Source: a virus
Reading direction: 5' to 3' (one strand)
Length of the DNA stretch: 64,000 nucleotides
Virus record (IMG/VR): IMGVR_UViG_3300019458_000002
Location: 107,714 to 171,713 of that record
A model generated the notes under the pieces. That model worked only from the letters and a program-made list of their open reading frames with translations. It was not told where the DNA came from and did not search any database. Within the stretch, counting starts at the first letter, position 1, and every line of letters starts with the position of its first letter. Positions 8,303 through 63,604 of this stretch are shown piece by piece. The translations under genes and the position numbers were made by a program.

Positions 8303-8311
8303 AGATAAAGT

Positions 8312-8367
8312 CCCGGTCACAGATGCGTTGACCCTCCCTCTTTTCTGGTCTGTGACCGGGCAATTTT
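8312..8367 (+). terminator. Rho-independent terminator with long stem
   Basis: A perfect 12-bp stem (8312-8323 pairing with 8349-8360) with a 25-base loop, followed by CAATTTTT. It ends the operon that finishes at 8302, just before the HNH gene. The pyrimidine-rich loop is unusually long for a terminator. Confidence 0.75.
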
Positions 8368-8369
8368 TA

Positions 8370-8377
8370 GCTATTTA
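8370..8377 (+). promoter_or_regulatory. GCTAT box before an SD-less GTG start
   Basis: GCTATTTA directly follows the terminator and lies 14 bases before the GTG at 8384, with TAGTGTG spanning the start. No clear -35 box is seen and there is no Shine-Dalgarno sequence. It matches a motif shared with other SD-less genes in this window (2983, 10825, 15978, 30087, 31173). Confidence 0.4.
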
Positions 8378-8383
8378 GTTAGT

Positions 8384-8944: not shown

Positions 8945-8945
8945 A

Positions 8946-44094: not shown

Positions 44095-47000
44095 TGCCCT
44101 TAGCCTCGCTTAGTTCCTCGTCAATTTCAGAACCTGCCCAAACCATGACTTGGTCAGACAGCTTGTAAAAGTCACTATCTGGGAAGCCTTCTCCTGCGAG
44201 ACCACGGTCTCCTGGGTAAACAATGTCTAGGTTCATCTTAAAGCCTGCTGCTTTGATTGCTTCTATGAATTTTTGTGCTGCTACACGTCCTGAAGGCGAA
44301 TCTGTAACGTAGAAGGAACCAAGTTCCTCAGGGTTCTCTGGAACGAATGCATGTGGAACAAACAAAAGCGTGATTTCGTCTCCACGGTCTACGTTCTCTG
44401 GGAATTCAAATTCTCCGTCGAGAACTAGTTCATTTACATTTGTAAGCAAGAATGTAAGAGGGGTTGTTTCCAGTACAATAAGACCAGTATTAGAAAGTCT
44501 CCAACCTGTATTGTAGTTAGAGTGTCCCTCTTCAACTAGCACGTATGCGTTGCTCTCTACGTTACCGGCCATTACCTGGTTGAAATCAGGCGCTCTTGTG
44601 AGAATAAATGGCAGGCTTGGACTTCCTGTCTGAATTACTTCATAGATGCCATTGTTCTCAGGAAGAAGTAGCAAATTCTTGACCAAAATTCTATCTCCTA
44701 CCGAGACAGAAATTCCATCTACAATAAGCAAACCGTTGTTTGCTCCAGTTAGAGTCTTTGTTGGACCAGCACCGGAAGGAACATTTGGAGGAAGCGGAGT
44801 ATTGGTAGCAAGTACGACATTTTCGTGGAAGCTCAAGACTGCTCCTGCGCCAGTAGCTAGATATGGAATCGGCTGAGATGCTCTGTTGGTTCCAAAGTTG
44901 ATGGAAAGGAAGCCTTTTTCATTAGGAAACCGAAGTGAAGGAGCTTGGTCGTTAATATCAGCTAATAGAGGTAGTTTGGAGTACTTATGACCCTTAGACA
45001 GCTTGATTCCGGCTCTAGCTACGATGCTGGTGATACCCACGCCAGAAGCGGGGTTCCACATATACGGACCTGGAATAGCGGATTCAAGGGCTTTAGCTTT
45101 TGTAATTGTAAATTCTTCAGTTTCGGTGGTAATAAAGGCGTAGTTTGGTGTCTTCACCTTAAAAATGGTGACTAGGTCAGGGTCATTCACCTCTAGAACC
45201 TCATGAAGCACCCCATTTATTCCTCCAGCCATGAAGCTTTCGGCTCCTGGGGATAGAATGTAGTCAAATTTTTCAGACTGTAAGGTGGCCTGGGGGAACT
45301 TGACCTTGGCTCCACCAAAGATTGCAGAAACGTCATTTCCTTCAAAGCTAAGGCCAGCGGCACTACAGAATGCACGTTCCCTTGGAATAGTAAAATTACC
45401 CTTTACCCAGCTGTATGTCTTCAGGTCGAAGAACTCGGCCGTTTCTCCAGCGATGTTTACTAGCTCCTTGGCTGCATGAGACTTAACCAGAGGAGTTGCG
45501 AAGTTCAGGGTTCCATAAGTAACGTTGTCAGTCTTAGAAGAATAGGCAATTGGACCTTCAAAATTGGTTGTTCCAATGCCAATGTACACGTTCCCGTTCT
45601 CGGGAAACAGGTCATAGTCTTCGATATCAAAGTTTATGGATGTTGACCCCGCATTTTCTGGGTCAACCAAGTTTGAAACAATTTTTTCAGAGCCAGGGTC
45701 AATTCCTAGTCCATCGACAACCATGATTTGGTTAATGGCAGGAAGGTATTTGGCTTTGCACCAGACTCGTTCACATGCCATAGGCGGTAACATTCTCCAA
45801 TAGCGCTCAGATGGCTCAAAGACCTCGCATGAGGATAGGGGTTGGGCAAGTCTAGAACCAGAATTTACGTTAAAGCCTCTTCCACCGAAAACGAAGTGAC
45901 GGCCATCTGGTAAACTAACCATGGCATGACCATAGCGGGCATAGGCCATAGGAGCTTCAGTCCTCCATTGCCATCCAGAAAATGGTTCTCTTGCAGCAAA
46001 CGTATTGTTATATACATGGCCGCCGTGGTTTGGAAAATCTCCAAATCTGATGGCCGTAGTATCTACTACAATTGGAGCAGGAGTATTCAGAATCCATTCA
46101 GAGGAGGCGTTTACCTCACCTGTAGCAACAACTACGTCTATGTACTGTATAAACTGATGTGACTCCATAAGGTCATCTGTTCTGGCTAGCACAGCAATGT
46201 AGTTGTTGTTGATTGGTCCAACGAATGACTTAACTACATATACACCGTTATCTGTTGACTTTCGGAATCGACCCTCGTCCTTAATTAAGATTCTGTCATC
46301 TACAATTACACTGAGGCTGTCGAACTTCAGAAAGTCTGGGTCATTGGGATTGATGATTGTAATTCTCTTGGAGCTTCCGTTTCCAACGAATGTAATTTCT
46401 GCATCTGGAAATGTCTCTTCCAGAGAGCGAGTTGTTGCCACTTTAACTTCAATTCTTCGAGGCACAGTTTCCTGGGATACAGAACTTGAGGCTTCATGTA
46501 TAGTTCCCACTTGCCCTTGAAAAATCTTTCTGATAACAGAATCGTTGATTGAGGTGTCATTGTGGGGAGTAAAGCTGATTGCACTAACTCCTACAACAAC
46601 TGTATTGTCTTGGTCTACTCCCCAGGTTGTGTTGCTCCAGGTATCACCTAGTTCAACCTTGTAAAATCTATTGAGAGTAAAATCTGCAGATGTATCTAGA
46701 ACAGTAGAGCGCGACCAAGCACCGGCTGTTGCGGTATAGACTCCGTTTTCAGAGGGGTTTGATTGAAAAAGAACAAGGACTCTGTGCCCCTCTTCAAGTT
46801 GAAATCCGTCAATTATTTGAAGTCCAGAAAGAACTGTATCTGTGGTAGTTGCCACTTTGACCCAAACAGGGTCTTTGTACATTGAAAACAAGTCAATGTT
46901 ACCTAGGTAAGTTCCTGTGGCTGCTCCGCTGGGAAGCAAGAAGCCCTTGGAGCTACTTCCTAGTCGCAGAAGTGCGTCCACTCCATCTTCACAGTTCCCC

Positions 47001-50000
47001 TTGTCTGGGAATGTTTCTAAGAACTTTCCGTTGATGTATAGACTTACGCTGTAGGTACCTCTTCCTTGGAAGAAAGAAGAATCGTCGCTAGCCAAATTCA
47101 CTAGAACAGTTTGTGTAGTCGGCTGATTCAAGCCTCCAGCATTAAATACCTGGAATTCGCTATCAAAAGTGATTGATATGGGGCCTTCAGAAAAGGCCTG
47201 AAATGCTTGCCCAGGAGGTCTTGCTAAAGTTAGTTGGCTACTGCTATTCTTTGTGACTACAACCCAATCTCCCTCATTTAGAGTATTGAATGGCCCAACT
47301 GGTCCGCCTGTCGATAAACCTGGAATTAAAACAGTGTCCCCTTCAACAACAGAGATAAAGGGAGTTCCGCTATGTGTAAATGTTGCTGTATTGTCTGGTA
47401 GAGCAACTACAGTAATGGTTCCTCCAGCAGTAGGTGTTGTGCGTGCAATTCCATCAGGAGGATTATTGGCAAACTTGGTTGCGTAAATGGTTGAGCTAGT
47501 GATATTTGTAACTATATATGAACCACGATTCTCTCCAAAAAATTCGTTTAGAGACCCGTTTGCTATAAGAAAGTGGTCTCCAATAAATTGAGTTGTGAGA
47601 TTCCAACTTCCTGTATCTTTTGTAATTTCTACGTCCATTCCACCAACTGCAGTAATGGTAACGTTGTCTGGAAAAGTTACACCAACAAAGGACCGTAAAG
47701 GAAGCGGCAGTGTATTAACTGGAACTTCTTGAATTTGCTTTTTTAGAGCATAGTGGTAGAACACAGGCTGTGTATCGCTGTGTGGGATAGGCATGTTGAT
47801 TTCAAAGGGAATAGATGAAGCTGCTGAAACTGGGACTCCAGTGTTGTTTTCCCAAACGAAGTAGAACTTGCGTTGACTGGAATCGGCGGTTGGAAAGATA
47901 GAAAGTCCAAACTCTATTAGTACGTTGTCAGTCGTACTTAGGCCAGTGCCTCCGTTAGAAAATACGGTGCCTTCTTTTGAAGTTATCCACCCCATCATTG
48001 TCCAGTTTGAATATATCGCTGTGTTCAGAGCCGTTTGCTCAGCACCCGGACTTGAAATCAAGCTAGCTAAACTTCCAAATCTTACGGCATTCCCAATTTT
48101 GCCGGTAGGTCTTGGAGCAACGCCTTGTGTAAGTTCTACTCCTGTCACAGAATCAACGAAGGTTGGTCCCGCTGCATCTTCAAAGTCGAACATTAAAACG
48201 GTGGGCTGGGGTTTTTGAGGATAGTTTGGCACAGGGTCTCTACCACCCACAACCATGATTTGTCCAAAGTTTTCATTGTTGCGAGCAATAGTACCTTGCA
48301 AAACTCTCCTTGGTAGAGGGGCCTCTAGACTCCAGGAGTCTCCTGATTTGCTGTATGTTTGAACTTTATCTGTGGCTATGTTCCATCGTTCATATCCACC
48401 GGCCACATGAAGGTCATCTGACGTGGAAAATTGGCAAATTCCCATGCCCTCACCAACTGCTGTATTTAGAGGAGCTAGGTCTAGCTTTGTAATTGTGGCA
48501 GCCACCGTATCTACTCGGGCTCTTCGAAAGGTGCTCAAGATGGTTGAGCCAATCATTCCTGCCCATGGAGTTGTTACACCGCCGCCATAGTAGAAATCCA
48601 GTTTGTCGTTGCTGGCACCGCCCACATCCTGAATTAAAAAGTAGTCGTCACGAATAGTGGCTTCCCCATTACCACCAGAAAAATTCTTGTACTTGTATAG
48701 AAACTGCTTTAGACCACCAATGTCATTAATCCCAGTAACCTGGAACAAATTGAATTCTCCGACCATGGTGATTTCACCCGTTGAATTTAGGCGTCGGCCA
48801 GGAAGAGTAACGGCTGTCTTGCCATCTAGGATGTCACAGACCTTGTTATAGACTAGGTCAAGCGTAGTATCTTGGCTCCAGATTGCCCCTTCGCTATAGT
48901 TTGTAGAGCCAGTTACGGTTCCGTTTGGAGCTACGGTGCCGCTTGGTGCGCCAAGGACAATTTCTGGCGCAGTCAGGTCTCCATATAGACCATCAATAAT
49001 GACTTGGTCTCCAACCTTAAGTTCATTTTCTATTGGAGTACCAGTATCAATGGTCAGGACTCCGAACTTATCTCTATGAGCTTCGCTAGCGGTAAAGGTT
49101 TCACCGGCTTGAGCATATGCTCCAGTTCTCATGTGCCTACCAACAGCCTGAGTAGTTGCTGGAAGTACAACGTCTATCTCTTTATCGTGCTGAGCAACAA
49201 CTACGAATCGAATGTTGTCATATATAGTCCTTTTGATGGGCCTAAAAAGCATCAAACAGTCATATTCACACTGCTCTACAAGTGCTTGTGCAGCCCCAAC
49301 CTGATTTTCTACCTCAAAATATTGCTCTGTGGGAGTAAAGACAACGTTAACGATTCTAAACTGGCCTCTATTGCCAGGAAGGAACTCACTGCCTCTGATG
49401 ATAACGTAATCACCAATGTGAAGTTTTTGTAAGTTAAAGAAACCTACCGTCAAAAGGTTGAATCTAACTCGCTTATTGTTGAAGGGATACTCCGTTGGAA
49501 TTGAAATCTCCCAAGAAGGTAAAGATGGAGGAGGTCCAACGATAGGGAATATATTCTGAGAGAACTGAAGGGTGGCTTGGGCTGTTCCACCAGTTACTCT
49601 AATACCTGAGGACAGGCCTCGGCTTCCGCTGTAAATGCGAACATAGGTTTTTGCTGTAACGGGGTCTTTGAAGGCGATGGCAAATGCATTCGAGCCCTGC
49701 TCCTTAGCAGTTCTAGTGATTGTGTATGCTACTTCGATAGCCGTAGCCTTGCGCAACCTAGCAAAGTCTGCTCTGTTGAATACAACATTGACGACTTGCT
49801 TTTCATCTACAAGAAACGATAGTGTTGCTCCATTTGTAAACGTATATAGTTCCTCGACATCGCTTTGAACATAGGCCTTGACAGCATCCGTTCCATAGAA
49901 TACTTCCAGAACCTCCAAGAAAGCTTCTTGTGTAAGTTGATTGGACTTAAAGACGATTGCTAGTTGACGATATAGGTCGTCGCTGATGCCAATATTAGGT

Positions 50001-50656
50001 GGACGTTTGACGCCCTGGTCTCCAGCATTCCTATCTAGGTAAAAACTGGCTGAGGTGCTGATATATAGTTGATTGAAAGCTAAGCGAGCATTTTCCTGGT
50101 TGATTTTATCTCCAGCCGCAAGCCCCGCGATGACAGCATCCCATCCTCTACCCTTAAGTGCAGGGTGTAGGTGTTTTCGAAGCACGCCTTCTGAATCGTC
50201 ATTCTCAGCACCAAGAGAAAGCGGTTCCTGGTTGACCAGGTCAACATTGAACACATAACTAAGAGGAGGCTGAATACCTGCTCCAGATACTGACGCAACA
50301 TTGTTAGAAACATCTAGCTGCCAGATTCCTGGGACAAGGGGAGAAGAAAGATATATGTCAACGACTTCATCGTCTTCATTGAACTTTGTAATCTGAGTAA
50401 TGGTTACGGGAGTTGGACCGACAAAGCTATAGTTCAGTGGATTTAGAGCATCATTAAAGTCTATGGGATTTGTGGTCTTGGGCGTGTTTGTAAAGCGAAC
50501 TCGTAGCCAAGCAGGAGCAATTAGCTCTACGCTATCCAAAGAGAAGTCTCCATCGCACATAGCCACGCCAGGATTGCCGTAGCCTTGAGTTGGGACTAGC
50601 TCAGAATTTAATCCAGATGCATATAATCCGTAGCCAGATGTAATTACTAGAGGCAT
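44087..50656 (-). CDS. Giant tail protein with Kelch-like repeats, LamG-like region and fibre modules
   Basis: 2189 residues, uninterrupted. By rough position: unknown N-terminal tail domain (1-700); a Kelch-like stretch (about 726-820, HVAGGYERWN ... IMVVGGRDP); a LamG/concanavalin-like region (about 820-1260, KIGNAVRFGS, SVSLYINGKFLETF); three copies of the (DRVLVK ... NGVY ... W) module (about 1270-1360, 1450-1535, 1965-2070); a second Kelch-like part (about 1556-1653, GRHFVFGGRG ... IMVVDGLG); and an NFEGPIAYSSKTDN module (about 1690). LamG and Kelch parts could bind sugars or proteins on the host surface. No catalytic residues recognised. Confidence 0.65.
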   Translation of the reverse strand: MPLVITSGYGLYASGLNSELVPTQGYGNPGVAMCDGDFSLDSVELIAPAWLRVRFTNTPKTTNPIDFNDALNPLNYSFVGPTPVTITQITKFNEDDEVVDIYLSSPLVPGIWQLDVSNNVASVSGAGIQPPLSYVFNVDLVNQEPLSLGAENDDSEGVLRKHLHPALKGRGWDAVIAGLAAGDKINQENARLAFNQLYISTSASFYLDRNAGDQGVKRPPNIGISDDLYRQLAIVFKSNQLTQEAFLEVLEVFYGTDAVKAYVQSDVEELYTFTNGATLSFLVDEKQVVNVVFNRADFARLRKATAIEVAYTITRTAKEQGSNAFAIAFKDPVTAKTYVRIYSGSRGLSSGIRVTGGTAQATLQFSQNIFPIVGPPPSLPSWEISIPTEYPFNNKRVRFNLLTVGFFNLQKLHIGDYVIIRGSEFLPGNRGQFRIVNVVFTPTEQYFEVENQVGAAQALVEQCEYDCLMLFRPIKRTIYDNIRFVVVAQHDKEIDVVLPATTQAVGRHMRTGAYAQAGETFTASEAHRDKFGVLTIDTGTPIENELKVGDQVIIDGLYGDLTAPEIVLGAPSGTVAPNGTVTGSTNYSEGAIWSQDTTLDLVYNKVCDILDGKTAVTLPGRRLNSTGEITMVGEFNLFQVTGINDIGGLKQFLYKYKNFSGGNGEATIRDDYFLIQDVGGASNDKLDFYYGGGVTTPWAGMIGSTILSTFRRARVDTVAATITKLDLAPLNTAVGEGMGICQFSTSDDLHVAGGYERWNIATDKVQTYSKSGDSWSLEAPLPRRVLQGTIARNNENFGQIMVVGGRDPVPNYPQKPQPTVLMFDFEDAAGPTFVDSVTGVELTQGVAPRPTGKIGNAVRFGSLASLISSPGAEQTALNTAIYSNWTMMGWITSKEGTVFSNGGTGLSTTDNVLIEFGLSIFPTADSSQRKFYFVWENNTGVPVSAASSIPFEINMPIPHSDTQPVFYHYALKKQIQEVPVNTLPLPLRSFVGVTFPDNVTITAVGGMDVEITKDTGSWNLTTQFIGDHFLIANGSLNEFFGENRGSYIVTNITSSTIYATKFANNPPDGIARTTPTAGGTITVVALPDNTATFTHSGTPFISVVEGDTVLIPGLSTGGPVGPFNTLNEGDWVVVTKNSSSQLTLARPPGQAFQAFSEGPISITFDSEFQVFNAGGLNQPTTQTVLVNLASDDSSFFQGRGTYSVSLYINGKFLETFPDKGNCEDGVDALLRLGSSSKGFLLPSGAATGTYLGNIDLFSMYKDPVWVKVATTTDTVLSGLQIIDGFQLEEGHRVLVLFQSNPSENGVYTATAGAWSRSTVLDTSADFTLNRFYKVELGDTWSNTTWGVDQDNTVVVGVSAISFTPHNDTSINDSVIRKIFQGQVGTIHEASSSVSQETVPRRIEVKVATTRSLEETFPDAEITFVGNGSSKRITIINPNDPDFLKFDSLSVIVDDRILIKDEGRFRKSTDNGVYVVKSFVGPINNNYIAVLARTDDLMESHQFIQYIDVVVATGEVNASSEWILNTPAPIVVDTTAIRFGDFPNHGGHVYNNTFAAREPFSGWQWRTEAPMAYARYGHAMVSLPDGRHFVFGGRGFNVNSGSRLAQPLSSCEVFEPSERYWRMLPPMACERVWCKAKYLPAINQIMVVDGLGIDPGSEKIVSNLVDPENAGSTSINFDIEDYDLFPENGNVYIGIGTTNFEGPIAYSSKTDNVTYGTLNFATPLVKSHAAKELVNIAGETAEFFDLKTYSWVKGNFTIPRERAFCSAAGLSFEGNDVSAIFGGAKVKFPQATLQSEKFDYILSPGAESFMAGGINGVLHEVLEVNDPDLVTIFKVKTPNYAFITTETEEFTITKAKALESAIPGPYMWNPASGVGITSIVARAGIKLSKGHKYSKLPLLADINDQAPSLRFPNEKGFLSINFGTNRASQPIPYLATGAGAVLSFHENVVLATNTPLPPNVPSGAGPTKTLTGANNGLLIVDGISVSVGDRILVKNLLLLPENNGIYEVIQTGSPSLPFILTRAPDFNQVMAGNVESNAYVLVEEGHSNYNTGWRLSNTGLIVLETTPLTFLLTNVNELVLDGEFEFPENVDRGDEITLLFVPHAFVPENPEELGSFYVTDSPSGRVAAQKFIEAIKAAGFKMNLDIVYPGDRGLAGEGFPDSDFYKLSDQVMVWAGSEIDEELSEAKGNG

Positions 50657-50660
50657 GAGA

Positions 50661-53600
50661 TTATTGTCCTACGAATGTCACCGATATGTCGTTTACTAGG
50701 TCCAGAACAAGCAGTTTTTCAAAGGGCTGAACTCGAATCAGGTCGTTGATTGAGTTATAATTTGGGCTGATGATACTCACGGAGATGACACCTACAACGC
50801 TTCCTGCAGCAGAGATTAGGTCGCTGAAGGAGATGGATTGTCCAACTGCGCTCTGGTTGATTTCTGTGGCTACAGCTGAGCGTACGCGGTCTCCAAGCTC
50901 ATTGAGGGGCACGCCTGTGCGGGCTCTAACAGACAAAGATACCTTGATTCTCTTGACGATAGGTCCAGAGATGTTCACCTGACTTCCATTGGCTGCGACA
51001 CCAGGGTATGTATCGGGGTCAGAGGGGACTCCATACACAACCTTGTTGGCTTCTCCAACTAGGCCCGTATTGTAACGATATGCGTCGATACCGCTAAAGG
51101 TATCCGTTGAGAACTCCAACTTGTCTCGGGCTGTAATGATAGAGCCTAGGGCGCTTGAAATGCTACCAAAGGAATAAGACGTATCAAAGAACAGGTCGGT
51201 CTTGGTTCCGTCTTCCTGATTTGGATAGATTCCAAAGATTTTCTTGATAAAGTGGGCTGGTGAAGATTCATAGACGTTGACGAGAGATACACGAGAAGCC
51301 CCTAAAGTTAGGGTTCCAGGGGAAGCATTCAAAACTTGCTGTGTTGTTCTCTGAGAGATGTCTAGACGAATCTTTGTTGTGTTAGTGAACTGGAAGCCGG
51401 TCCCATCCTGCCCAACTTCAAGAATTTTGAAACTTCCTTTGTTTCCTGCTCCCCATAGGTCGGTATTTATTGATAGGGTATCTCCTGGCATAACGCTGTT
51501 TGACGAATAGCCTTCAAAGTTAGTGAAGAACGTTCCTTCAATGGCATTTGGATTTTCAATCCAAACGGTTTCCGCGTAGAAGAACTTAGGGAAGTCAAAG
51601 TTTTCTTCAATGTACTTTCCAGAAGTTACCCGAACAACCCTGAATACTCCTTCATTAGCAGAAGGGGTCATAAGGAACTCGGTATCGATTACTTCGTTCT
51701 CTATGATGACCGTGTTTCTAACAAGTCTTAGCCAGTCACCTTCTTTTAGAACCTCGGTTGGTCCATTGAAGCTGCTGATGAAACTGCTAATCTGTAGAAC
51801 ACTTGGCAGGCTTGAGTTGCGAATAATGGTTATGCCGACTAGGTCACCTTCACGTTCAAAACTTAGTAGGGAGAAATCTCCGTTGGTTTCGCAAATCTTG
51901 TTGTATAGATTTACGGTTCCAGGATAGAATTCAACTACGCCATCTGTAGTAATAGATGAAATCTCTGAGGATGCCATAAAGATTCCGGGCTTAAGTATAT
52001 TTTCGGTGTTGTTGATGTCTACGTATGCTCCACCCAAGAGTCCTGTAGCATTCTCTTTGCTGATGATAGCAACCATGCCGTCTAGAATTGGATTTGGGGA
52101 TGAGTTATCGACATCGTACTTCAATGAAGTGCCGAATACATTGGCAGTAATATTGTTGGCTGTGCCGCCTTGAACCTGAACCCCACCAACAGAACCGGCT
52201 GTTAAGGTGGAGATTTGAACACGATTGCCAGAGTCAGACTCCTCAACCTGAGAAACGTTGAATAGACCAGAGATGGCGGGCGTATTCAGCCAACGCCGAA
52301 CGGTGTGTGCATGAATAGGAACAATGCGAACTTCTTCGTTTGCCCAATCGCTATCTGTTGACAAGCTGCCAGTGATAGGCATCTTGAAGTCAAAACCGTA
52401 ATGTAGAGCTACGTTAGGAGGAAGCGTAGTCTTTGATACGTGATTTAAACCATCAGACATGAAGTAGCCTGCCTGTGAATCAAATGTCTCTGCCCAAGTG
52501 GACATAGTGATGATTCCAGTACCCGTTCCTAAAACAGTTCCTATGATAGGAACTTTAGAATCTTCTTCATTAGCAAGCCCATTAACCGCATCCACAATAT
52601 CCTTTGCAGAACTCCCGAAATTCTGAAAGATGACTACGCTGGTATCTTGTGTAAGTGGTGCCCATTCAGTTTGTCTACTGAGTACACCCAAGGTGTAGGG
52701 GTCGTTTCCGTTAAACCCTCTGTCTAGAACATATGCGCTCAAGTATTGGGCTCCGTGAGATAGAACCTGATAAGTTCTTAATTTAGCAATTGGGTCACCA
52801 AACTGGGTTACACCAATAGAAGATACGTAGTCTCCATCTGATAAAGCTACGTCAAACAGTGACTCACCCTCAGAATTGAAAGATACGTTGCCAATATTTG
52901 GAGTAGGAGCTACAACCCCAACATCTGTAGATGTAAAACGAACATCTTGCGTGCCTGCAATCAGGTTTGCTGGGTCGACTGAAGTTAGGGTGATTACTCC
53001 GCTTGTCCAGTTTACATCGGTGCTGTTCAAATATAGCTTATCGCCAGGGCTCAATCCTGTGCTGGATGGCCCAGTTGATGGAGTTGCATCAGGAATGGTT
53101 AGGGTAAGAGTTGTCTCATTAAGACCATCTCTTTCAGCAGACTCCACTGTGAAGCCTAGGAAGAAATAGTTTACGGTGACTCCTGGACCAGGGGCCAACA
53201 CAATTGCTTGTCCAAAGAAGGAGTTGTTAAAGTTACTTGGTTGAAATGTGTTGCCGGTTCTTTCTGCTCCAGAACCCAGTACAATCTCAACGTTGATTTT
53301 CTGACGACTGTTGTTTTCTACCAACGTAGATTTGTCAGGAGTGACCACTCTTGCAGTAATTTGCTGGTCTGCCTCATCTGGATATACGTATCGAACAAGC
53401 GCGTTATTCCCTTCAGCGCCAAAGCGATAATATCTCCAAAGCACAGAGCGTGTGGCATCGGCTTCATGGCTCTTTGTGCGAGCTTTCATGTAGATGGCGA
53501 AGTCATTGAAGTCGTATTCTAGACCGAATGCTACGGCCAAACTCTGGTTACTGTTGTCCAGGTCCTTAAATTCGTTTGTACTACCATATGTACTTGTGGT

Positions 53601-56600
53601 AGGAGTTAGTTTTCGGAACATGTTGACTGGATATCTCTTTGTAAGGACATCCTTGTCAATCACGACAGACAAATCATCTTCAGGTCCAATGGCGAATGGG
53701 TTAGTAATAGAAATCCGCTCATTCGGCATAGATTCGTGTAGGAAAGTGGAGCGAAGCCCGACCTTGTAGTAGCCCCTGTCTGCATTATAGTCTTCTACTA
53801 GAGAGACAAGGCTGCTAAATCCTTCGTTAAGGCCCCAGTTTAGACCAAGGTCATCGCTATTCATTAGCCTATTTAGGATATTGACCTTTTGTCCACCATC
53901 GATGACACCGTTTAGAAATGCAGTGATTGGCCAATCAAGAGTTCCAGAATCAGTTGTGTAGTTAATTAGCGTTGGTTCAAAGTTGGTTGTACCAACATCA
54001 GAGTTTCCTGATTCGGTGCTACCAAAGTGATTCGTAAGGTTGTTAAAATAGTCAACCTCTAGACCAAAGGCCTCTTTCATTTCTGGTTCGATTGCAACAA
54101 GGGCAATGTCACCATCAACATCAAAACTGTTTGTACGAATTCGAGTCTTGTCTGTCAAGTATGTAGAAGCTAGGGCACCTTTCAGAGTTTCATTTAGAGT
54201 TTCAGACAGGTTAAATGCTGTGTATGAACCAGCTGGAACGGTTAGTTGCTGGACATAGTTGTCACTGCGGACAATGGTTACACCAGCAGCAGTCAAGATG
54301 ACACCAGTTGTGTCTACGATAGGGTCTAGAATCTCGTTTACATTGACTAGGTCGGTGCCGCTGCCGCCAATAGCTACGTTTCCTCCAGTCTGTGTTAGCT
54401 GATGAGAAATAGCAGAGCTTTCTTGAGAGGTAACGTTATACGAATTAGGGAACAAAACACGACGAGTGCCTGAGGGGGTACCTATTACGTTAACTGGATT
54501 CCAATCAGTAATCCAGGTTGGCGTATTGGGCTCAGGAAAGAACCCCGTGAATTGCCAAGTTTCTCTGATAGCTGGACCAGCGTTGGCAATGTCAAACATA
54601 AAGCTGAATGTGCCAACAAGCTCAAGGAAATCTAGCTTACCTAGAGCAACAATGTTTTCGACGTTGACGCTTGACGCATCCACCATCTTCAAGATTTTGC
54701 TGTCTACAACAGAGAATGTTTTAATCTCGGTGGTTTCAGTAAAGGTTATCGTTGCTGAACCAACACCGCCTCCAGAAGTAATATCAACTTCTTCTTGGTT
54801 AGTGTGCCAAGAAGTTCCTGCTTGGGTTCCGTTCTTGACGTAGAATGTGGGCTTCAGATAAAATTCAGCTGCTGAATTTAGGTCAACAACCCGTGTCCAT
54901 GCGCCCGCTGCCACAAGATATACGCCATTCTGAGATAGAGTTATCTGATTCTTTACTAAGACACGGTCTCCTGCAACCACAGACACAGTGTCAATAACCT
55001 GTGGAGCAGCCAGAACAATGTTGGCTGTTGTAGCTGCTTTGACTGGTTTCTTAGCTGGATGGTCAAAACTTACACGCGCAGGCTCGGATGGTTCCCATGC
55101 ATTCCCAGAGATGTTGTATGTGGTATACGTATCAAAGTTACCGATAGAATACTCGGAACTATTGCCTACAGCTAGGAGTCGGTTACTATCAACCCTTTCT
55201 AGTCCAAACACAGCTCTTCCAACGTCCATGTTGGCTCGTATTGTGAAAACTGTTCCGTCGAAGCTATCTGTCTTGCTAGATAGACTACCACCGCTATCCA
55301 TGCCACCAACCACAAAGATACTTGTCCCAACTAGAACTGCTCTGTGACTGTGACGGCCTCGACCTACCCCAAATGAAGGAGACGAAAGTAAGGATAGGCC
55401 ATCGGGTGCTAGAACATAGCAGTTAACCACGGCCAATCCATTGGAGTCCATGCCGCCCGCAATAAACACCCTGTTGTCGGAAAGTAGGTTAACTGTTAAC
55501 CTAGAAACAGGAATTGTAAGAGAAACAGGAGAAATGGACCAAGAATCAAGAGTTGGGTCATAGATTTCAATGGAGTTCAAAAGGACTCCATTCTGGTCTT
55601 CCCCGCCTGCTACCAATACCTTGCCGTTGCTAAGACGAGCCGCTGCAAAGTTTTTGCGAGATGTAGACATGCTGGCCGCAAATGTCCATTCACCCGTTAT
55701 ATTGTTCCATAGCTCTGCAGTAGCTGTTACGGAATTCTCACTTGCAAACTCTAAAGAAGGAGATGTGATACCGCCAATAGATATAACTTCGCCACTCGTA
55801 AGAGCTACGGCTTCTCTTGAAGACCGGGCCAAGTTCATGTTCTTTTTTACTAGAACCACGTAGTTGAATTCTGGGTCAACCTCGGACACTCGCCACACTT
55901 GGCGCTGGGTATCATTGAAGCTTTCATCCCAAAGAATCAGGAAGTCACCAGGCTTGACACTCTTAAATGGCTGATTTGCCAAAGTAGCAGTCATATGAAC
56001 ACGAAGTCCCCATGCCTGAAATTTCTCAATCTCAAACGTATATCGGGCACCGAACTTATGAGCAACAGGCGTTGCATTAGAGTCCACTGCCATCCACATG
56101 CGGACATCGTTCAGAAGAGCAACGGGGTCAATGCTAGGCGACTCAATGAATGAGCGTGTCCATTCAGTTCCTAGTGTGAGTTTGTCACCCAGAGAAAGGA
56201 TTTTGGAGAGTCTGAACTGGCTGACGTTGCGGTCTAAAACATAGTCTTTATCAGTTCCAAATGCTTGCACTTGGTCGAAGATTTTTCCTACTAGGCTTGT
56301 GGTAACTGGGTCTATGACAATAGATGCGCTGGCCACAAAGCCCTTGTTCGAAGTCACAACCAGTTGGTCGTTGGCAACAGTAACTGTGATTCCAGGGATT
56401 CGTGCATTTAGTACAGTCGCCCATGCCTCTAGACTGTTGTTGCCTACAGCTGCGTACCCTGTATTGAGGTCGAAGAAATCTTGGTCGGTGATTGTGTATA
56501 CAGCCGAGGGAGTGCCATCAACAGCAATGCCAAGTGTCTGGCTGCCACTGATAATAGACCAGCCATCAAAGTCCCGGCTAAGGATGATGGCCGCTGTCCC

Positions 56601-58061
56601 ATCCTTGTTTAGGATGCGGTCGTTTTTGTAAAGAAGAGTTGTAAAATGACGATTAGCGGCAAACCGGATTTCAAGGTTTGCGTCAATGTTTGGCTCAAGA
56701 ACCGGAACAAGTTCTACATCGTCATTTGACTCGTTGCGAGAAAACAGAACAACGTTCTTGCCGCCATTTAGGGTTCGTGCGCCAAAGTCAATATCTGGGT
56801 TTCCATTGATAGAAGAAGAAACTTCGTAAGCAGACGCATTTTGGATTGACACGAAGTCAGAGCTTCTGAATGTGTGTACACGTAAGACTCCACCTACCTT
56901 GACCGCAAGCTGGGCAGCTTCTTCTAGAATGTATGGGGCTTCCTTCTGAGAGACTACGAAAGCTTTGGCAATGGGTCTGTTTGTTGCCTGTAGGAAGCGT
57001 TCCCCGCCCCCTGCAGCGTCGATAATAGCTTCGAAGCCCACGCCATCAGTCTGTTCTTCATAACCGCTGCCATCGTCAATAAAGAGGGTGCTGGCTACGT
57101 CTGTGGTTGCGACGATAGAGCTTGAGGTGACGCGCCTATTTTCATCTGGAGAAATAATATTCGAAATGGAAGTAACGATTGCGAGGTCAGTACCTTTTTG
57201 ACGTGTTGCCCTAGTGCTCTTGATACGCTCGCGATATGTAATGTCATCTTCGGAAGCGAGACCATTTGTGAATGGTAGTGGGTTAGTGACTGCTGCACCT
57301 GGGAATGGAGTAGTTGCGAATTCGATTATTGACCCAGAAATTACATTTCCATCAAGGCCTGGAACACTGCAAGACACCAAAACATCTTCGATTTGGTTTT
57401 CTCCATCTGGTAGGACAGAGGTGTATGTTGTTCGAAACTCTACAACACTTGCGTTGTTAATTTGGGGCGTCCGAACCACCGTACCAGCTGTAATTGTACG
57501 GTCGCCTCCTTGGCCAAGAACAACCTCTTCAGCTACATTATGGAATTTGGTTGTGGGAGTGGATAGATTCAGAGTTACGTAAGTGCCATTGTCTGTTTTT
57601 GAAGAATATGCGATAGGGCCTTCGAAGTTTAGTGTTCCTCTACCGATGTAGATGTTACCTGAGGTTGTAAATAGCGCTGCATCTACTGCGTTAATATTGA
57701 TTAAAACAGAGCCCACAATTGGAGGGCTAGTGCCTTGGAAGACCCGGCTTGAGATTTTCTCAAAACTCTCATCGGTTATGACCACCTTGCCATTAGATTC
57801 TTCGGCTTCTAAACGAAGAATGTCTTCATCGGCACCAATACGGTCAAGAGCAATACCTTCAGAGCGGTCTAGTGCCCGAGAAGCAAGTAAGTTAAAGATG
57901 TCTTGCGAAGTGCGGACGTCGCTCTGAGCCGCAGCTTCCATCGTAGATAGAATTGCGGAACCAACCTTCAGATTTTTTAGACCGAATCGTGAGACTAAGG
58001 CCTCGGTCATTTCTCCTAGGGTCTGCGGATAACTGCGGAAGTTAGGAATATCGTTTGCCAT
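50661..58061 (-). CDS. Giant baseplate J-like protein with inserted Kelch-like propeller
   Basis: 2466 residues. The N-terminal about 330 residues look like Baseplate_J/gp6 family: early helices (LGEMTEALVSRFGLKN), GIALDRIGADEDILR, SCSVPGLDGNVISGSI, TNPLPFTNGLASEDDITYRE and RIKSTRATRQKGT. The last about 110 (IKVSLSVRARTGVPLNELGD ... VVGVISVSII) match the family C-terminus. Between lies some 2000 residues, including five or more Kelch-type blades (about 748-994; GKVLVAGGEDQNG, NRVFIAGGMDSNG, SIFVVGGMDSGG) and one DRVLVKN module (about 1018-1108). Family members are usually a few hundred residues long. Probably wedge protein with surface-exposed arms. Confidence 0.72.
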   Translation of the reverse strand: MANDIPNFRSYPQTLGEMTEALVSRFGLKNLKVGSAILSTMEAAAQSDVRTSQDIFNLLASRALDRSEGIALDRIGADEDILRLEAEESNGKVVITDESFEKISSRVFQGTSPPIVGSVLININAVDAALFTTSGNIYIGRGTLNFEGPIAYSSKTDNGTYVTLNLSTPTTKFHNVAEEVVLGQGGDRTITAGTVVRTPQINNASVVEFRTTYTSVLPDGENQIEDVLVSCSVPGLDGNVISGSIIEFATTPFPGAAVTNPLPFTNGLASEDDITYRERIKSTRATRQKGTDLAIVTSISNIISPDENRRVTSSSIVATTDVASTLFIDDGSGYEEQTDGVGFEAIIDAAGGGERFLQATNRPIAKAFVVSQKEAPYILEEAAQLAVKVGGVLRVHTFRSSDFVSIQNASAYEVSSSINGNPDIDFGARTLNGGKNVVLFSRNESNDDVELVPVLEPNIDANLEIRFAANRHFTTLLYKNDRILNKDGTAAIILSRDFDGWSIISGSQTLGIAVDGTPSAVYTITDQDFFDLNTGYAAVGNNSLEAWATVLNARIPGITVTVANDQLVVTSNKGFVASASIVIDPVTTSLVGKIFDQVQAFGTDKDYVLDRNVSQFRLSKILSLGDKLTLGTEWTRSFIESPSIDPVALLNDVRMWMAVDSNATPVAHKFGARYTFEIEKFQAWGLRVHMTATLANQPFKSVKPGDFLILWDESFNDTQRQVWRVSEVDPEFNYVVLVKKNMNLARSSREAVALTSGEVISIGGITSPSLEFASENSVTATAELWNNITGEWTFAASMSTSRKNFAAARLSNGKVLVAGGEDQNGVLLNSIEIYDPTLDSWSISPVSLTIPVSRLTVNLLSDNRVFIAGGMDSNGLAVVNCYVLAPDGLSLLSSPSFGVGRGRHSHRAVLVGTSIFVVGGMDSGGSLSSKTDSFDGTVFTIRANMDVGRAVFGLERVDSNRLLAVGNSSEYSIGNFDTYTTYNISGNAWEPSEPARVSFDHPAKKPVKAATTANIVLAAPQVIDTVSVVAGDRVLVKNQITLSQNGVYLVAAGAWTRVVDLNSAAEFYLKPTFYVKNGTQAGTSWHTNQEEVDITSGGGVGSATITFTETTEIKTFSVVDSKILKMVDASSVNVENIVALGKLDFLELVGTFSFMFDIANAGPAIRETWQFTGFFPEPNTPTWITDWNPVNVIGTPSGTRRVLFPNSYNVTSQESSAISHQLTQTGGNVAIGGSGTDLVNVNEILDPIVDTTGVILTAAGVTIVRSDNYVQQLTVPAGSYTAFNLSETLNETLKGALASTYLTDKTRIRTNSFDVDGDIALVAIEPEMKEAFGLEVDYFNNLTNHFGSTESGNSDVGTTNFEPTLINYTTDSGTLDWPITAFLNGVIDGGQKVNILNRLMNSDDLGLNWGLNEGFSSLVSLVEDYNADRGYYKVGLRSTFLHESMPNERISITNPFAIGPEDDLSVVIDKDVLTKRYPVNMFRKLTPTTSTYGSTNEFKDLDNSNQSLAVAFGLEYDFNDFAIYMKARTKSHEADATRSVLWRYYRFGAEGNNALVRYVYPDEADQQITARVVTPDKSTLVENNSRQKINVEIVLGSGAERTGNTFQPSNFNNSFFGQAIVLAPGPGVTVNYFFLGFTVESAERDGLNETTLTLTIPDATPSTGPSSTGLSPGDKLYLNSTDVNWTSGVITLTSVDPANLIAGTQDVRFTSTDVGVVAPTPNIGNVSFNSEGESLFDVALSDGDYVSSIGVTQFGDPIAKLRTYQVLSHGAQYLSAYVLDRGFNGNDPYTLGVLSRQTEWAPLTQDTSVVIFQNFGSSAKDIVDAVNGLANEEDSKVPIIGTVLGTGTGIITMSTWAETFDSQAGYFMSDGLNHVSKTTLPPNVALHYGFDFKMPITGSLSTDSDWANEEVRIVPIHAHTVRRWLNTPAISGLFNVSQVEESDSGNRVQISTLTAGSVGGVQVQGGTANNITANVFGTSLKYDVDNSSPNPILDGMVAIISKENATGLLGGAYVDINNTENILKPGIFMASSEISSITTDGVVEFYPGTVNLYNKICETNGDFSLLSFEREGDLVGITIIRNSSLPSVLQISSFISSFNGPTEVLKEGDWLRLVRNTVIIENEVIDTEFLMTPSANEGVFRVVRVTSGKYIEENFDFPKFFYAETVWIENPNAIEGTFFTNFEGYSSNSVMPGDTLSINTDLWGAGNKGSFKILEVGQDGTGFQFTNTTKIRLDISQRTTQQVLNASPGTLTLGASRVSLVNVYESSPAHFIKKIFGIYPNQEDGTKTDLFFDTSYSFGSISSALGSIITARDKLEFSTDTFSGIDAYRYNTGLVGEANKVVYGVPSDPDTYPGVAANGSQVNISGPIVKRIKVSLSVRARTGVPLNELGDRVRSAVATEINQSAVGQSISFSDLISAAGSVVGVISVSIISPNYNSINDLIRVQPFEKLLVLDLVNDISVTFVGQ

Positions 58062-58093: not shown

Positions 58094-60688
58094 TTACTGC
58101 TTAATCTCAAAGCTGACGGGAATTGTTTGGTTTACTCCAGAAACCTCAACAGAAATTCCTATTTGAGCAAGGCCACCTTTGATAGACACAGAGGTTTGGC
58201 GTATGGCAGAAAAGGTTGGGTCATTTGAAAAGGCGGTTTGGGCCATTTTTAATAGTTCAGAAGCAGAAACATCTGCTACAGAAACACCAACCTCTATTGG
58301 TAGTCCGTATTCTGGGTGGTGTAAAAGCGTGCCTTGACGAGTATTTAGAATTAGTCGCACTCTTTGAACAATATTTGTCAACCCTACAGCCAATCTATTG
58401 TCGCCATCGTCAGTCAGAACAATGTCATTTGCGGGTGTAAGCAAGAAGTCTACGCCGCCCACAGCAATCATGGGGTCAAACTCATCTACTCCAGGAATTG
58501 ACCTGGATTTGAAATCGTTTTGTATCGGAATTTCATCAGATGGAATATATACGAGCATCTGCGAATTGACGGTATCGGGCAAGAAAGCTTCTAATACAGC
58601 ATTATCTAGCACCTTGAACTTTGCTAAATCAGTTTCTCCATCTACAGATACGATGTTTTGTCCAAGAGTAACTGTTCTAATCCCAATTACACGCCGCCTC
58701 TCTTTAAAAGAGGCTGTGCTTGAGATGTAAACTGGCTGTCCAACGAACACATTAGACACATCTTCAATCACAACTTCATTTCCGTTTCCATTTGTCAGGA
58801 GTTTAAATCGGAATCCAACCTCATCAACATATGGTTCTCGCAACCCATTTAGAGTTGCAATTTCGTGCCAACGATTGGGGTCACCCAGATATCTAGAAGA
58901 CAAGATTTCTAGTGTAGACCCATATGGGAAAGGTACTGCAAATTTAGACACAGGTTCCCTAAATGCAATGCCTGCTCCTCTTGCTAGACCAGCAATGTAT
59001 TCGATTGTGCTTAGTCTAGACGAGGGCTCGCCATCGCCAGATGCAGAAAGTGCATTAAAGGCCATAATGGTCTGATTCAGAGCAAAGAGTATTTCTAAGT
59101 CCTGAGATGTTGGCGTTGACCTCACAACAGTACCGGCTTTTTTATCAAAAGTAGTATCGTAAATAGAGCTTCCTGCGCCTACGCTATCTGAAAAGCTTTC
59201 GATAACACTTACAAGTGCGTCTCTTTTTTCTTCGAAGTCGCTTCTAACTAGTGACCGTACTCGTTTTTTCTCTTCCTCAATTTTCTTCTTGGTTGAAACA
59301 GGTAGGTCTAGAGAATCCATATTTACCTTGTCCAAAGCTTGCCCATGTTGTGCCCCATCTTGATAGACGTTGGCTCCAGGGGCTGAATTTAAGGCCCTTC
59401 TTTTTTGTGATGGAGTAGACTGAGTGATTTCTCCTCCAAGCTGCCTCATGTTGCTTTGGTCTTTTTGGGTTTTTCTGTCAAAATTCTCCTTATTCATATT
59501 CTTGTAGGCGCTAATTTCACGGCCTACCTGTTTCTGAATACTCTCTGGAAAATCCCGTAAAGTTGTTTTAAACCCAATCACATCCTTAGAAAACAAAATC
59601 CCTTCTCTAACAAAATTGATGGCTCTGTCGATGTCTCCACGAACTGCCTGAAGGGTATTTTTTGCTTCTTCTAAAGTTCGTCGGGCACTAATTAGGGTTG
59701 AAAGAACCCTAGCCATCTTGTCTGGATTTTTGGATACAGAAATATCAGGAACTCCTATATTAGGTACCGTTCCTACGCGCACTCGTCGCCAGGCCTTTAG
59801 CTGAATAGAATATGCATACTCAAATGGGCTTGTAGCTAGTCTTCTTAAGTCAAAGGACACGGGTGTAACCAAATAGACTTGGTCTTTAGTGTCCTTCCAG
59901 TTAGCAAATGCAAGCACCTTGTTTTTACCTAAATCCGTTTTTTTGAGTTTTCCATATCTTTCAAAAAAAGATTGAAGTAATAGAAACTGATAAAATCCAC
60001 TTGTCTTGCCAATCTCTCCTGGAGAACTTTCTGAACCAATTTCAGAGTCCGTTACTGTGTTATTGATTAGGCCAAAGTTTCCACCAATTGCCAATCTAGC
60101 TGTATCTTGAGCGGCTCTAACTGTTTGGCTTACTCCACCAACTACACCATTTACTACTCCACCAGCTATGCCGCTCCCTGCCAGTATCTGATTGAAACTA
60201 GTTCCAGTTCCTAGGCTGCCTTTTTTAGGCAATACACCCGTTGTTCCAGATAAAGAAATCATCTTAAAGGGTGTTCCGTTGTGTTCTTCGATAATTCCCC
60301 CCAGTGTTGCGCTGACATTAATAGCAAATGGCATTGAGATGGTCATTGACTCGGGTGGTATAGGCAAAGTAAACAGCCACTCTGGGCCACCGTAGTAAGA
60401 AACGCCGCCGCTCTTGTTGATTTCTATGATTCTGAACTCATATGGGAATCGTTGATTCCATCTGATAGGGTCTATGGCCGATTCATCCCAAAAATCCAAA
60501 GCTCCTTCTCCTGAGGCCTGGTCATTTTTGGGCTGCTGCTGATTGGCAGTTTTGGATTGCTTTATTACTGCTTTCTGAGCATCTGCATTTTCAGGAGCAA
60601 ACGTGTGCCCAATTGTAGACAAAGGAAGCGGGTTTTCTACTCCATTTGCCCCTAGAGTATGTGAAAGAGGAGGGTTAATATCGGCCAT
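58094..60688 (-). CDS. Baseplate protein with LysM-like and gp25-like domains
   Basis: 864 residues. An N-terminal strand-rich region (about 80-155, FTLPIPPESMTISMPFAINV) recalls LysM-linked baseplate proteins. A long charged coiled stretch (about 330-500) follows. FPYGSTLEILSSRYLGDPNR (about 585) is LysM-like. The last about 100 residues (RVRLILNTRQGTLLHHPEYG ... SVEVSGV) match the gp25/W-like wedge domain. It seems to fuse two baseplate parts that are separate genes in T4- and P2-like phages. Confidence 0.68.
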   Translation of the reverse strand: MADINPPLSHTLGANGVENPLPLSTIGHTFAPENADAQKAVIKQSKTANQQQPKNDQASGEGALDFWDESAIDPIRWNQRFPYEFRIIEINKSGGVSYYGGPEWLFTLPIPPESMTISMPFAINVSATLGGIIEEHNGTPFKMISLSGTTGVLPKKGSLGTGTSFNQILAGSGIAGGVVNGVVGGVSQTVRAAQDTARLAIGGNFGLINNTVTDSEIGSESSPGEIGKTSGFYQFLLLQSFFERYGKLKKTDLGKNKVLAFANWKDTKDQVYLVTPVSFDLRRLATSPFEYAYSIQLKAWRRVRVGTVPNIGVPDISVSKNPDKMARVLSTLISARRTLEEAKNTLQAVRGDIDRAINFVREGILFSKDVIGFKTTLRDFPESIQKQVGREISAYKNMNKENFDRKTQKDQSNMRQLGGEITQSTPSQKRRALNSAPGANVYQDGAQHGQALDKVNMDSLDLPVSTKKKIEEEKKRVRSLVRSDFEEKRDALVSVIESFSDSVGAGSSIYDTTFDKKAGTVVRSTPTSQDLEILFALNQTIMAFNALSASGDGEPSSRLSTIEYIAGLARGAGIAFREPVSKFAVPFPYGSTLEILSSRYLGDPNRWHEIATLNGLREPYVDEVGFRFKLLTNGNGNEVVIEDVSNVFVGQPVYISSTASFKERRRVIGIRTVTLGQNIVSVDGETDLAKFKVLDNAVLEAFLPDTVNSQMLVYIPSDEIPIQNDFKSRSIPGVDEFDPMIAVGGVDFLLTPANDIVLTDDGDNRLAVGLTNIVQRVRLILNTRQGTLLHHPEYGLPIEVGVSVADVSASELLKMAQTAFSNDPTFSAIRQTSVSIKGGLAQIGISVEVSGVNQTIPVSFEIKQ

Positions 60689-60694: not shown

Positions 60695-60704
60695 CTAAGA
60701 TTGT
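60695..60704 (-). promoter_or_regulatory. Intercistronic ACAATCTTAG element (copy 3)
   Basis: ACAATCTTAG on the minus strand, starting within the stop codon of the 331-residue protein and ending 6 bases before the ATG at 60688; here its TTAGGA also serves as the ribosome-binding site. Confidence 0.35.
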
Positions 60705-61699
60705 TAGTCGGTCTTATTTTTCTTCGAAAGATATCGAGATGATTGAGCCTCAAAGGCAGAAATGGCTGATACAACCTGCATCAGACCGGAAGCAACAGCA
60801 CCCATTTGGAAAAATGGAAGCGCAATTGCAGCCTGTGTAAGCCCCGCAATGATTTTAGAGTGCATTTGAGATTGAGCTTTGCGATAGGAAGTTCCCTTCA
60901 TCCAAGCATCTGATGCGCTTCCAACATTAACGCCCTTGCCTTTTATAGAAGTCCCGCCCTTGTCTGTAATTGCCACAGACCCTGAGGCGTCCACCCTTAC
61001 GTCCTTGGCCTTGACCGTATATGCGCTGTCCGCAACAATATCAATCGTTTTCTTTTCATGATTGATGGTCATGCTTTGTTTTTTGTCTTTGGTGTTTACA
61101 ACAAAATTCCCATTTTTTTGAATGGTGAGTGTAGTTCCAACAGCATTTTTATCAACATCTTGATTTATTTTTCCATCAGCATCAGTTACACCTTGATATT
61201 GGAGCACCAGTTCTCCGTCTTTGTTAATGACAAAGTCGATACCATTAAAATTAAAATGCAGATTATGTCCCTTTTCCTTTATTTGTTTGTCGGACACATC
61301 CAGGGTATCTCTTATTCCGCTTATGATTATGGCGTTGTTCCTGTTGCCATCAACACACAGCAATAGAACCTTTGAACCTAATCCAGCCTTTAGTCCATTA
61401 TCCTTTTCTTTACGCTGTTCCGTGTGTTCTGCACGAAGAGTAAAAGAAAGCTTGTCTGCAAGACCACCAAATAAATTTGAGATAGTACAGCTACGATACA
61501 TTAGTCGAGTGTATGTTCCTCCTTCAGAGTAGGTAACTAGCACATCGTATTCTATTAGTTTCTTGCTGATACTTCTTTCATCTGATGGATAGACGATTCT
61601 TTGTACTTCTCCTATTCTGAGTTGGAGGTTGCCGTATAGACCAGATGGAACCTCTGCTCCAACGTCTTCCACTTTGTAAAAACTGGGGATAATTTCCAT
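60704..61699 (-). CDS. Baseplate assembly protein V / spike-like (gp5 C-terminal-like)
   Basis: 331 residues. An N-terminal OB-like barrel (LYGNLQLRIGEVQRIVYPSD) and a middle made of short repeated strands with Gly/Asp turns (FVVNTKDKKQSMTI, TVKAKDVRVDASGSVAITDK, IKGKGVNVGS) are like the trimeric beta-helix of gpV/gp5 spikes. The C-terminus is an Ala-rich hydrophobic helix (ALPFFQMGAVASGLMQVVSA), which is unusual for a spike tip. Lies between the hub-like and wedge-like genes, as expected. Confidence 0.6.
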   Translation of the reverse strand: MEIIPSFYKVEDVGAEVPSGLYGNLQLRIGEVQRIVYPSDERSISKKLIEYDVLVTYSEGGTYTRLMYRSCTISNLFGGLADKLSFTLRAEHTEQRKEKDNGLKAGLGSKVLLLCVDGNRNNAIIISGIRDTLDVSDKQIKEKGHNLHFNFNGIDFVINKDGELVLQYQGVTDADGKINQDVDKNAVGTTLTIQKNGNFVVNTKDKKQSMTINHEKKTIDIVADSAYTVKAKDVRVDASGSVAITDKGGTSIKGKGVNVGSASDAWMKGTSYRKAQSQMHSKIIAGLTQAAIALPFFQMGAVASGLMQVVSAISAFEAQSSRYLSKKNKTD

Positions 61700-61702: not shown

Positions 61703-63604
61703 TTAAACCACCTTAATTGTTTTTGGCAGGTCTGTTCCTAATGGAGTCTCCGAAAGACCTCCAAAACGTCCCGGTGAATCAATTGTGCCATCACCCCTTA
61801 CACCCAGACCCTGATTCTCGGCCCCCTCAATTTGCGTTTGGTCGGCATCAACTGCAGGATTCTCTCTTTGAAACAGACCAGGATAAGAAGGAAATACCTT
61901 CTTTTCATCAGAATCTATGTCTTCCATTCCATTGGTCAAGCTTAGCTGTGTATTAAAAAACTTTTTTCCATCTGGTCCAATTCCGCAGTTATGATTGACA
62001 GACTCAATATGAAATATCAGATTATCAAACTGAGCATTGTCTCCTTCAGCAATAGGTGCTTGAATTCCTAGACAACTGATAGTGCCATTCATAGTTAAGT
62101 GGCTTCCAATTTTCCAGTCAGCAACCAGTGTCATCCAAGACGATGGTGATTGGTCTTTTGTATCGGCAACATGACAGTCTACCTTTGTTATATGCGCTCT
62201 AAGCCCCGACCTTTGAATATCGATGTCATCGACAATAGGTTTGTTGGTGGCCATTTGTTGAGGACCAGTGTTTGCGTCAACATGGTCTAAAGCTGAAGCG
62301 GTTATCTGAACAAAGTTACATCGTGTAGAATCTGACCTACCTACGGATAAAGACCGAATAAGAAGGGACGGAATTTTCCACCTTGGTAAGGTCAAAAACT
62401 TTGTTACTACTAGGGATTCTGGCCCTGGCTTAAAGGCTTCTGTAGTGAAAGGTATTTGTCTAACGACTATCTGAGGCACGACAAACCCGCTCTCATTAAG
62501 CTTCAGGCTTGTGTACATCTCATTGATTTCAGGATTGATATATTGCTGAACTTGAGACCACAACGGCTTATTAGCAAAAGTAGGAGGATTAAAAAAGGTT
62601 CCTAACACTGGATTGTTCGTAACTTTTCTGTTTAGTGTTGATTCGTCACTTAAGTTGTCTGGAGTCATACCACCTTCAGGTGAGTAGTTTTGAATTCCAA
62701 TCCACAACTCTAGTAGGTCAGCATAAGACAAGAAACCGCTTTTCTTAGAACGCTCATCAGATGAACGACCCAAAATATTGCCAACTTCCTGGGGGACAAT
62801 GTAGGCGAATGGAGCTTCTGTATTTGTTTGCCCTACTGCGGGACTAGGTAAGCCCTTGTCTGTGTAGTCCTTACCAATACCCTTCAATACCCCTTTGCCA
62901 ATTACGATATCTAGTATCGTGGGAATGATAGTGTTGGTATTGTTTTTATCGACACTAAGAATCTTCGTGAAGAAGTCTCCAGATAAGCCTATTTTTGCAT
63001 ACCAATTTTGAAGTTCATCTCTGGAGTCTATAACAGCTGCCAAGAACGGGTTAAAAAAGAATTGCGTAGATAGTTCATTGAACCCAATTGCACTGAGGCT
63101 AACATTTGATGTCTTCATTCCAGACGAAGGTTCTACATCTAGGTTCAAGCGAATGTCATGAGCCCTGCCCACGAACTTGAGTCCATCATTAAACAAGTTG
63201 CATGGAAACTCAGCAGTGTCATTTCCAAGTCTACCTAACAAAGAATCAAATCTGTCTCTGCTGTTAACAATCCATGCCAATATCCAGTCGCCCGGTAATA
63301 TATTGGAAATGTAGTTTATGTTTGCTGTCTTTAGATTTGCATTAAGAGTTTTGATGTAGCTTCCCTTTGAATTTGCTACATTCAACCCCAGGCAATCATC
63401 GGTGATAATCATTCTGGACCGTACTCCGACGCCTCCATTATCGTCCTCACCCTCAAGCTTCAAACTTTTAAAGGTGCTTCTGGAGTATGTAACTGGGTTA
63501 CTCAGTCCTATGACTAGAATAATCCAATGCGGATTACTCATTACATATGAGTTGGAAGACTTTTCATAATCATTGATTATGTCATATACAGGAGGACGAC
63601 CCAT
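61703..63604 (-). CDS. Baseplate hub-like protein
   Basis: 633 residues. The N-terminal part, ILPGDWILAWIVNSRDRFDS (about 99-118), CNLFNDGLKFVGRAHDIRLN and NVSLSAIGFNELSTQFFFNP, has the layout of hub domains of gp27/gpD-type proteins (PGD..., GKxxD.., gFxE). Later regions are strand-rich. It precedes the spike-like gene in transcript order and follows the tape-measure-like gene, matching the usual order tape measure, hub, spike, wedge. Confidence 0.6.
   Translation of the reverse strand: MGRPPVYDIINDYEKSSNSYVMSNPHWIILVIGLSNPVTYSRSTFKSLKLEGEDDNGGVGVRSRMIITDDCLGLNVANSKGSYIKTLNANLKTANINYISNILPGDWILAWIVNSRDRFDSLLGRLGNDTAEFPCNLFNDGLKFVGRAHDIRLNLDVEPSSGMKTSNVSLSAIGFNELSTQFFFNPFLAAVIDSRDELQNWYAKIGLSGDFFTKILSVDKNNTNTIIPTILDIVIGKGVLKGIGKDYTDKGLPSPAVGQTNTEAPFAYIVPQEVGNILGRSSDERSKKSGFLSYADLLELWIGIQNYSPEGGMTPDNLSDESTLNRKVTNNPVLGTFFNPPTFANKPLWSQVQQYINPEINEMYTSLKLNESGFVVPQIVVRQIPFTTEAFKPGPESLVVTKFLTLPRWKIPSLLIRSLSVGRSDSTRCNFVQITASALDHVDANTGPQQMATNKPIVDDIDIQRSGLRAHITKVDCHVADTKDQSPSSWMTLVADWKIGSHLTMNGTISCLGIQAPIAEGDNAQFDNLIFHIESVNHNCGIGPDGKKFFNTQLSLTNGMEDIDSDEKKVFPSYPGLFQRENPAVDADQTQIEGAENQGLGVRGDGTIDSPGRFGGLSETPLGTDLPKTIKVV

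Follow-up and report, generated by a model that had tools for sequence, protein, structure and literature searches.

The IMG/VR virus contig IMGVR_UViG_3300019458_000002 (171,713 bases) carries one open reading frame of 2466 amino acids (aa) that probably encodes a baseplate wedge subunit of the J/gp6 family bearing peripheral arms built from adhesin-type modules. The frame lies on the minus strand at positions 50661-58061 of the window, the 64,000-nucleotide stretch of the contig analysed here, exactly where a preliminary description of the DNA had placed it. Profile comparisons and structural models indicate a J-like N-terminal part and a J-like C-terminal domain, with an insertion of around 2000 residues separating the J core from the C-terminal domain (Table 1). 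That recognizable J-family ends flank a very long insertion in one frame had been proposed in the preliminary description and was confirmed through PF04865 at the N-terminal end and through fold and relatives at the C-terminal end, whilst its estimate of about 2000 extra residues agrees with an insertion spanning about residues 331 to 2332.

Table 1. Features of the giant J protein and adjacent genes, in window coordinates, with residue numbers of the J protein
Feature	Position	Residues	Strand	Basis
Probable giant Baseplate_J wedge protein, 2466 aa	50661..58061		-	PF04865, relatives, C-end fold
J N-terminal part: helical core bundle (residues 11-78), wing, trifurcation-like region	57072..58061	1-330	-	PF04865, hhalign, solved J chains, model
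First small insert, 'YIGRGTxNxEGP' module, ~85 aa	57513..57773	about 97-183	-	Gap in hhalign to HF2 J
Conserved first insertion block; small alpha/beta and beta-barrel modules	55857..57071	331-735	-	Common to all relatives
Six-bladed Kelch beta-propeller	55044..55847	739-1006	-	Kelch_1; model; fold Z 26
'VLVKNQ...NGxY' tail-fibre-type module	54732..55046	1006-1110	-	phrog_11518 among others; module HMM search
Variable middle	51540..54731	1111-2174	-	More gaps and lower identity than both ends
Tentative beta-barrel resembling EF-Tu domain II / E1 FCCH / endosialidase barrel	52863..53159	1635-1733	-	Z 7-8
Conserved second insertion block	51066..51539	2175-2332	-	Common to all relatives
J C-terminal (dimerization-type) domain	50664..50963	2367-2466	-	Fold Z 8-10.8; PF04865 in 11/24 family C-ends
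Upstream neighbour: tail-tube-initiator-like + gp25/sheath-initiator-like, 864 aa	58094..60688		-	PF23980, phrog_975
Downstream neighbour: second giant Kelch/VLVKNQ protein, 2189 aa	44087..50656		-	Kelch and three VLVKNQ modules
Fibre-like gene	41931-43637			C-terminus fibre-tip-like, by eye
Fibre-like gene	40242-41927			Two VLVKNQ tail-fibre modules

At the N-terminal end, residues 186-289 matched PF04865 in Pfam (profile positions 34-131 of 255, E = 9.6e-11), a match present in the N-terminal part of 22 of 23 family members. A profile of residues 1-305 also matched solved J or wedge chains, including phi812 ORF62 (E = 9e-14), phiCD508 gp65 (E = 5e-12) and, among others, diffocin CD1371, and hhalign against compact J proteins of haloviruses and Herelleviridae returned 98-99.7%; the fold search with the N-terminal half model gave a list swamped by Kelch chains. 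The N-terminal J portion of approximately 330 residues that had been described previously is not undivided: hhalign revealed an extra insert of ~85 aa within it that is missing from compact J proteins. This YIGRGT module recurs in the downstream giant protein (residues 1653-1733, about 45450-45700, minus strand), with 54% aa identity between the two copies and 73% DNA identity over 92 nt, which indicates, at the level of sequence, copying between adjacent tail genes. Related copies were also observed in the gene right after J in several relatives.

Matches to the J family were likewise found at the opposite end, so that neither end lacks one, the outcome that the preliminary description had said would overturn its reading. 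Structure prediction in segments, which it had also proposed, was carried out for the C-terminal half with AlphaFold2 (residues 1270-2466, pLDDT 73.6, pTM 0.67), and the last 100 residues of this model were J/gp6-like, matching phi812, cyanophage A-1(L), T4 gp6, pyocin PA0618 and Mu at Z 8-10.8 over 82-99 residues, with the wedge proteins of diffocin, Pam3 and the Streptomyces CIS within the same range of Z. The phiKZ chain 9xqs_U, which topped the fold list for this half, was disregarded owing to its probability of 0.25 and 40 Å rmsd. By sequence, the protein's own C-terminal end gave no match in Pfam, its profile found nothing in a PDB sequence search, and hhalign against compact J proteins was weak (3-16%), so the J assignment of this end rests mainly on fold and relatives. 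Among the 24 C-terminal 130-aa pieces of the family, 11 matched PF04865 (best E = 1.2e-4), and one family C-end, a weak member (E = 0.02), was placed at profile positions 193-254 of 255, in agreement with the order expected from the N-terminal match at 34-131. Model confidence was mostly below pLDDT 50 at both cut edges (residues 288-352 and ~2322-2365), as would be expected if the N- and C-terminal pieces complete one domain and each was modelled without its partner; the exact insertion loop is placed provisionally, by alignments.

The oversized J design is shared by at least 23 other phages, including the cultured Myxococcus phage Mx1. A scan for viral relatives with the single sequence returned nothing, and they were instead found with two- and five-sequence alignments (4 and 26 loci, respectively), whilst a scan of bacterial and archaeal genome contigs detected no relative and so no prophage or host copy in that collection. 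The family placed in our tree comprises 24 J proteins, namely that of Mx1, those of 22 further IMG/VR relatives and the present protein, which is the longest of them; intact IMG/VR relatives span 1759-2444 aa, with one more split into two frames and one truncated by a contig end. In the split case (relative L011), the overlapping frames 2449-6876 and 6858-9416 jointly encode a near-complete J, which is compatible with a sequencing indel, a real frameshift or a two-chain J. The Mx1 protein (WNM70274.1, OR576727; 1925 aa, annotated 'baseplate protein J-like protein') is 39% identical over 60% of the present protein and resembles it in the J ends, the conserved insertion blocks and the order of its neighbours, with a gp25-like fusion upstream and a Kelch protein just downstream. 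However, it is about 540 aa shorter and has neither Kelch nor VLVKNQ modules in J, its propeller being confined to the next gene. The BFVD also holds large 'Baseplate protein J-like' predictions from uncultured Caudovirales phages, all metagenomic, of which A0A6J5L250_2 aligned to our C-terminal half model over 1026 columns (33% identity, TM 0.60) and the similarly large A0A6J5KUV1 and A0A6J7WUL1 superposed poorly (TM ~0.1). Given the large J proteins across these relatives, Mx1 and the BFVD, length alone is nothing new but a family trait; our literature search found no paper on giant J proteins, nor on J combined with Kelch.

The insertion is modular. Its flanking blocks (residues ~331-735 and ~2175-2332) are common to all J proteins of the family and, being well conserved, are more scaffold-like than receptor-binding-like, whilst in nearly all full-length pairs compared conservation was lower in the middle than over the first 330 residues or the final 110 (flattest in L027/L028 and L005/L028), with most gaps in the middle or just before the C-terminal domain. 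The Kelch propeller was identified by a Kelch_1 match above the Pfam gathering score (E = 7e-15), by modelled blades with pLDDT mostly 80-95 and by fold similarity to KEAP1, KLHL and SAKe6 propellers (3.3-3.6 Å over ~240 residues); the fold shared with KEAP1 and KLHL12 (Z ~26) is here built into a phage wedge protein. It occurs within J at the same point in five of the 24 proteins, which form a single clade (support 98/93) in a tree of the J N-terminal region that has no outgroup, and for which gain is a simpler reading than loss. The VLVKNQ module was detected within J only in the present protein by a module HMM search over all relatives, and it is also found in 44087-50656 and 40242-41927. 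On the sequence and model evidence, this distribution is apparently read most simply as nested additions. Further into the insertion, the Z score of the candidate beta-barrel is close to the level of common arrangements, and a 'GD..NxGxFRV' motif at residues 699-735 reappears at ~2105-2170 (hhalign 93%). A general repeat array, considered because the small alpha/beta modules at residues 370-472, 498-592, 1270-1365 and 1905-1995 looked alike by eye, is not claimed at their hhalign values of only 0.4-27%, and Pfam found no carbohydrate-binding module in the insertion.

Compact members of the family, such as T4 gp6, Mu gp47, pyocin PA0618, diffocin CD1371 and phi812 ORF62, are alike in the J core (by sequence) and/or the C-terminal domain (by fold), but measure about 290-660 aa and lack the giant insertion. 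In the J of Bxz1-like mycobacteriophages (Tonenili, L033 2159-3898, 579 aa), the J core and the C-terminal domain are separated by ~230 additional aa, apparently at this same junction, although the insert is much smaller and the C-terminal alignment weak. The junction may therefore be a tolerant site, and perhaps a hot spot for insertions in J proteins generally.

The giant J gene sits in a baseplate cluster on the minus strand, in the order 61703-63604, 60704-61699, 58094-60688, J, 44087-50656, followed by the fibre-like genes and, at 38939-39448, an endolysin of the VanY type. The succession of gp25-like gene, J and further wedge-type gene is that of compact J systems, the same in HRTV-25, and the order of gp25-like gene, J, kelch gene and endolysin is retained in Mx1, where further genes lie among them. 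The upstream neighbour, for which a homologue was found in Mx1 (38%), matched the baseplate family phrog_975 (E = 1e-16), with GPW_gp25 and Sheath_initiator matches below the Pfam cut-off; it is apparently a fusion, whose tail-tube-initiator-like and gp25/sheath-initiator-like parts flank a weak match to an endolysin family (592-679). In Mx1 and many relatives, a gene downstream of J contains Kelch, and the present virus has a second giant protein more than double the length of its Mx1 homologue, a 982-aa kelch repeat protein. Between its gp25-like gene and J, Mx1 also carries genes for a nicotinamide phosphoribosyltransferase and an NMN adenylyltransferase (L001 10112-13414), possibly for rebuilding NAD+ against host defence. 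Elsewhere in the window, two plus-strand genes encode an SbcC-like nuclease subunit (5422-7359) and a 1297-aa DNA polymerase III alpha of the bacterial type, which includes a PHP domain (15978-19871).

Solved contractile systems suggest how such a protein could work. In diffocin, two J-type (Tri2) subunits and one Tri1 make up a triplex, the N-terminal parts of the J-type subunits forming the core bundle and trifurcation and their C-terminal domains dimerizing between neighbours into an iris ring (PMC11329794). We infer that the giant J would take an equivalent position, its ends being built into the wedge ring like those of the T4 or diffocin proteins, with two copies in each of six triplexes. 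Since the insertion sits between the trifurcation-like helices (residues 273-299) and the C-terminal domain, as many as 12 arms, each of ~2000 residues, could leave such a ring. From the module types and their divergence only, we infer that the inserted modules would touch the host surface, whether glycans or envelope proteins, and binding by arms that are covalently part of the wedge could pass straight to the contraction trigger. The closest precedent for a wedge protein with an inserted arm, by analogy, is AlgoCIS Alg11, whose extra domain IV (residues 278-643) protrudes from the wedge, forms a spike cage and has been suggested to aid attachment (PMC8894135). The giant J would act in a similar manner, although its insertion is larger (~2000 aa against ~365 aa) and contains Kelch and fibre-type modules where Alg11 has two carbohydrate-binding modules. 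The extended arms put forward in the preliminary description are thus plausible, fitting the Kelch propeller, the VLVKNQ module and the faster divergence of the insertion. Its suggestion that they do the work of separate fibres is unsupported, since two fibre-like genes and a second giant Kelch-bearing protein lie just downstream in the same genome.

These fibre-like genes also fit a different account, in which the insertion is mainly structural and forms a thick outer baseplate (a skirt, cage or clamp) that joins the wedges to one another, or to which the fibres and the other giant protein dock, with no host binding of its own. The retention of both conserved blocks in all relatives is consistent with this, as is the caging of the spike by the Alg11 insertion (PMC8894135), and, protein-protein contacts being a common role of Kelch folds and small modules, the propeller could itself be structural. 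However, the variable middle, the clade-specific Kelch domain and a tail-fibre module confined to this one J look like exchangeable surface modules, and we regard a mainly structural role as unlikely, though worth serious consideration, next to the adhesin-type arms favoured here.

Certain Kelch propellers have enzymatic activity, as in galactose oxidase and NanM, and the inserted propeller might similarly act on surface glycans as, for instance, a depolymerase or oxidase. One relative matched Pfam NANM, below its cut-off, but the best folds were the binding propellers of KEAP1 and KLHL proteins and no catalytic residues were identified, making catalysis improbable. That the frame arose by chance or by assembly fusion is suggested by nothing beyond its size and the two-frame J of L011, and is refuted by the same arrangement in 23 other viruses, including cultured Mx1 (327x coverage), leaving an artefact with a negligible probability.

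Wedge proteins are usually seen as the conserved, compact core of the baseplate and fibres as its exchangeable part. A more speculative and rather doubtful extension of the adhesin-arm reading is that receptor recognition in Mx1-like phages has largely moved into the wedge ring, where twelve ~2000-residue arms, fixed within the J subunits and bearing exchangeable Kelch or fibre modules, would sense the host and trigger contraction directly and separate fibres would be secondary. A conserved phage family with a five- to six-fold enlarged J that gains propellers and fibre modules would indicate that the wedge can serve as an adhesin platform, a role hinted at by AlgoCIS and for which the cultured phage Mx1 offers a testable case.
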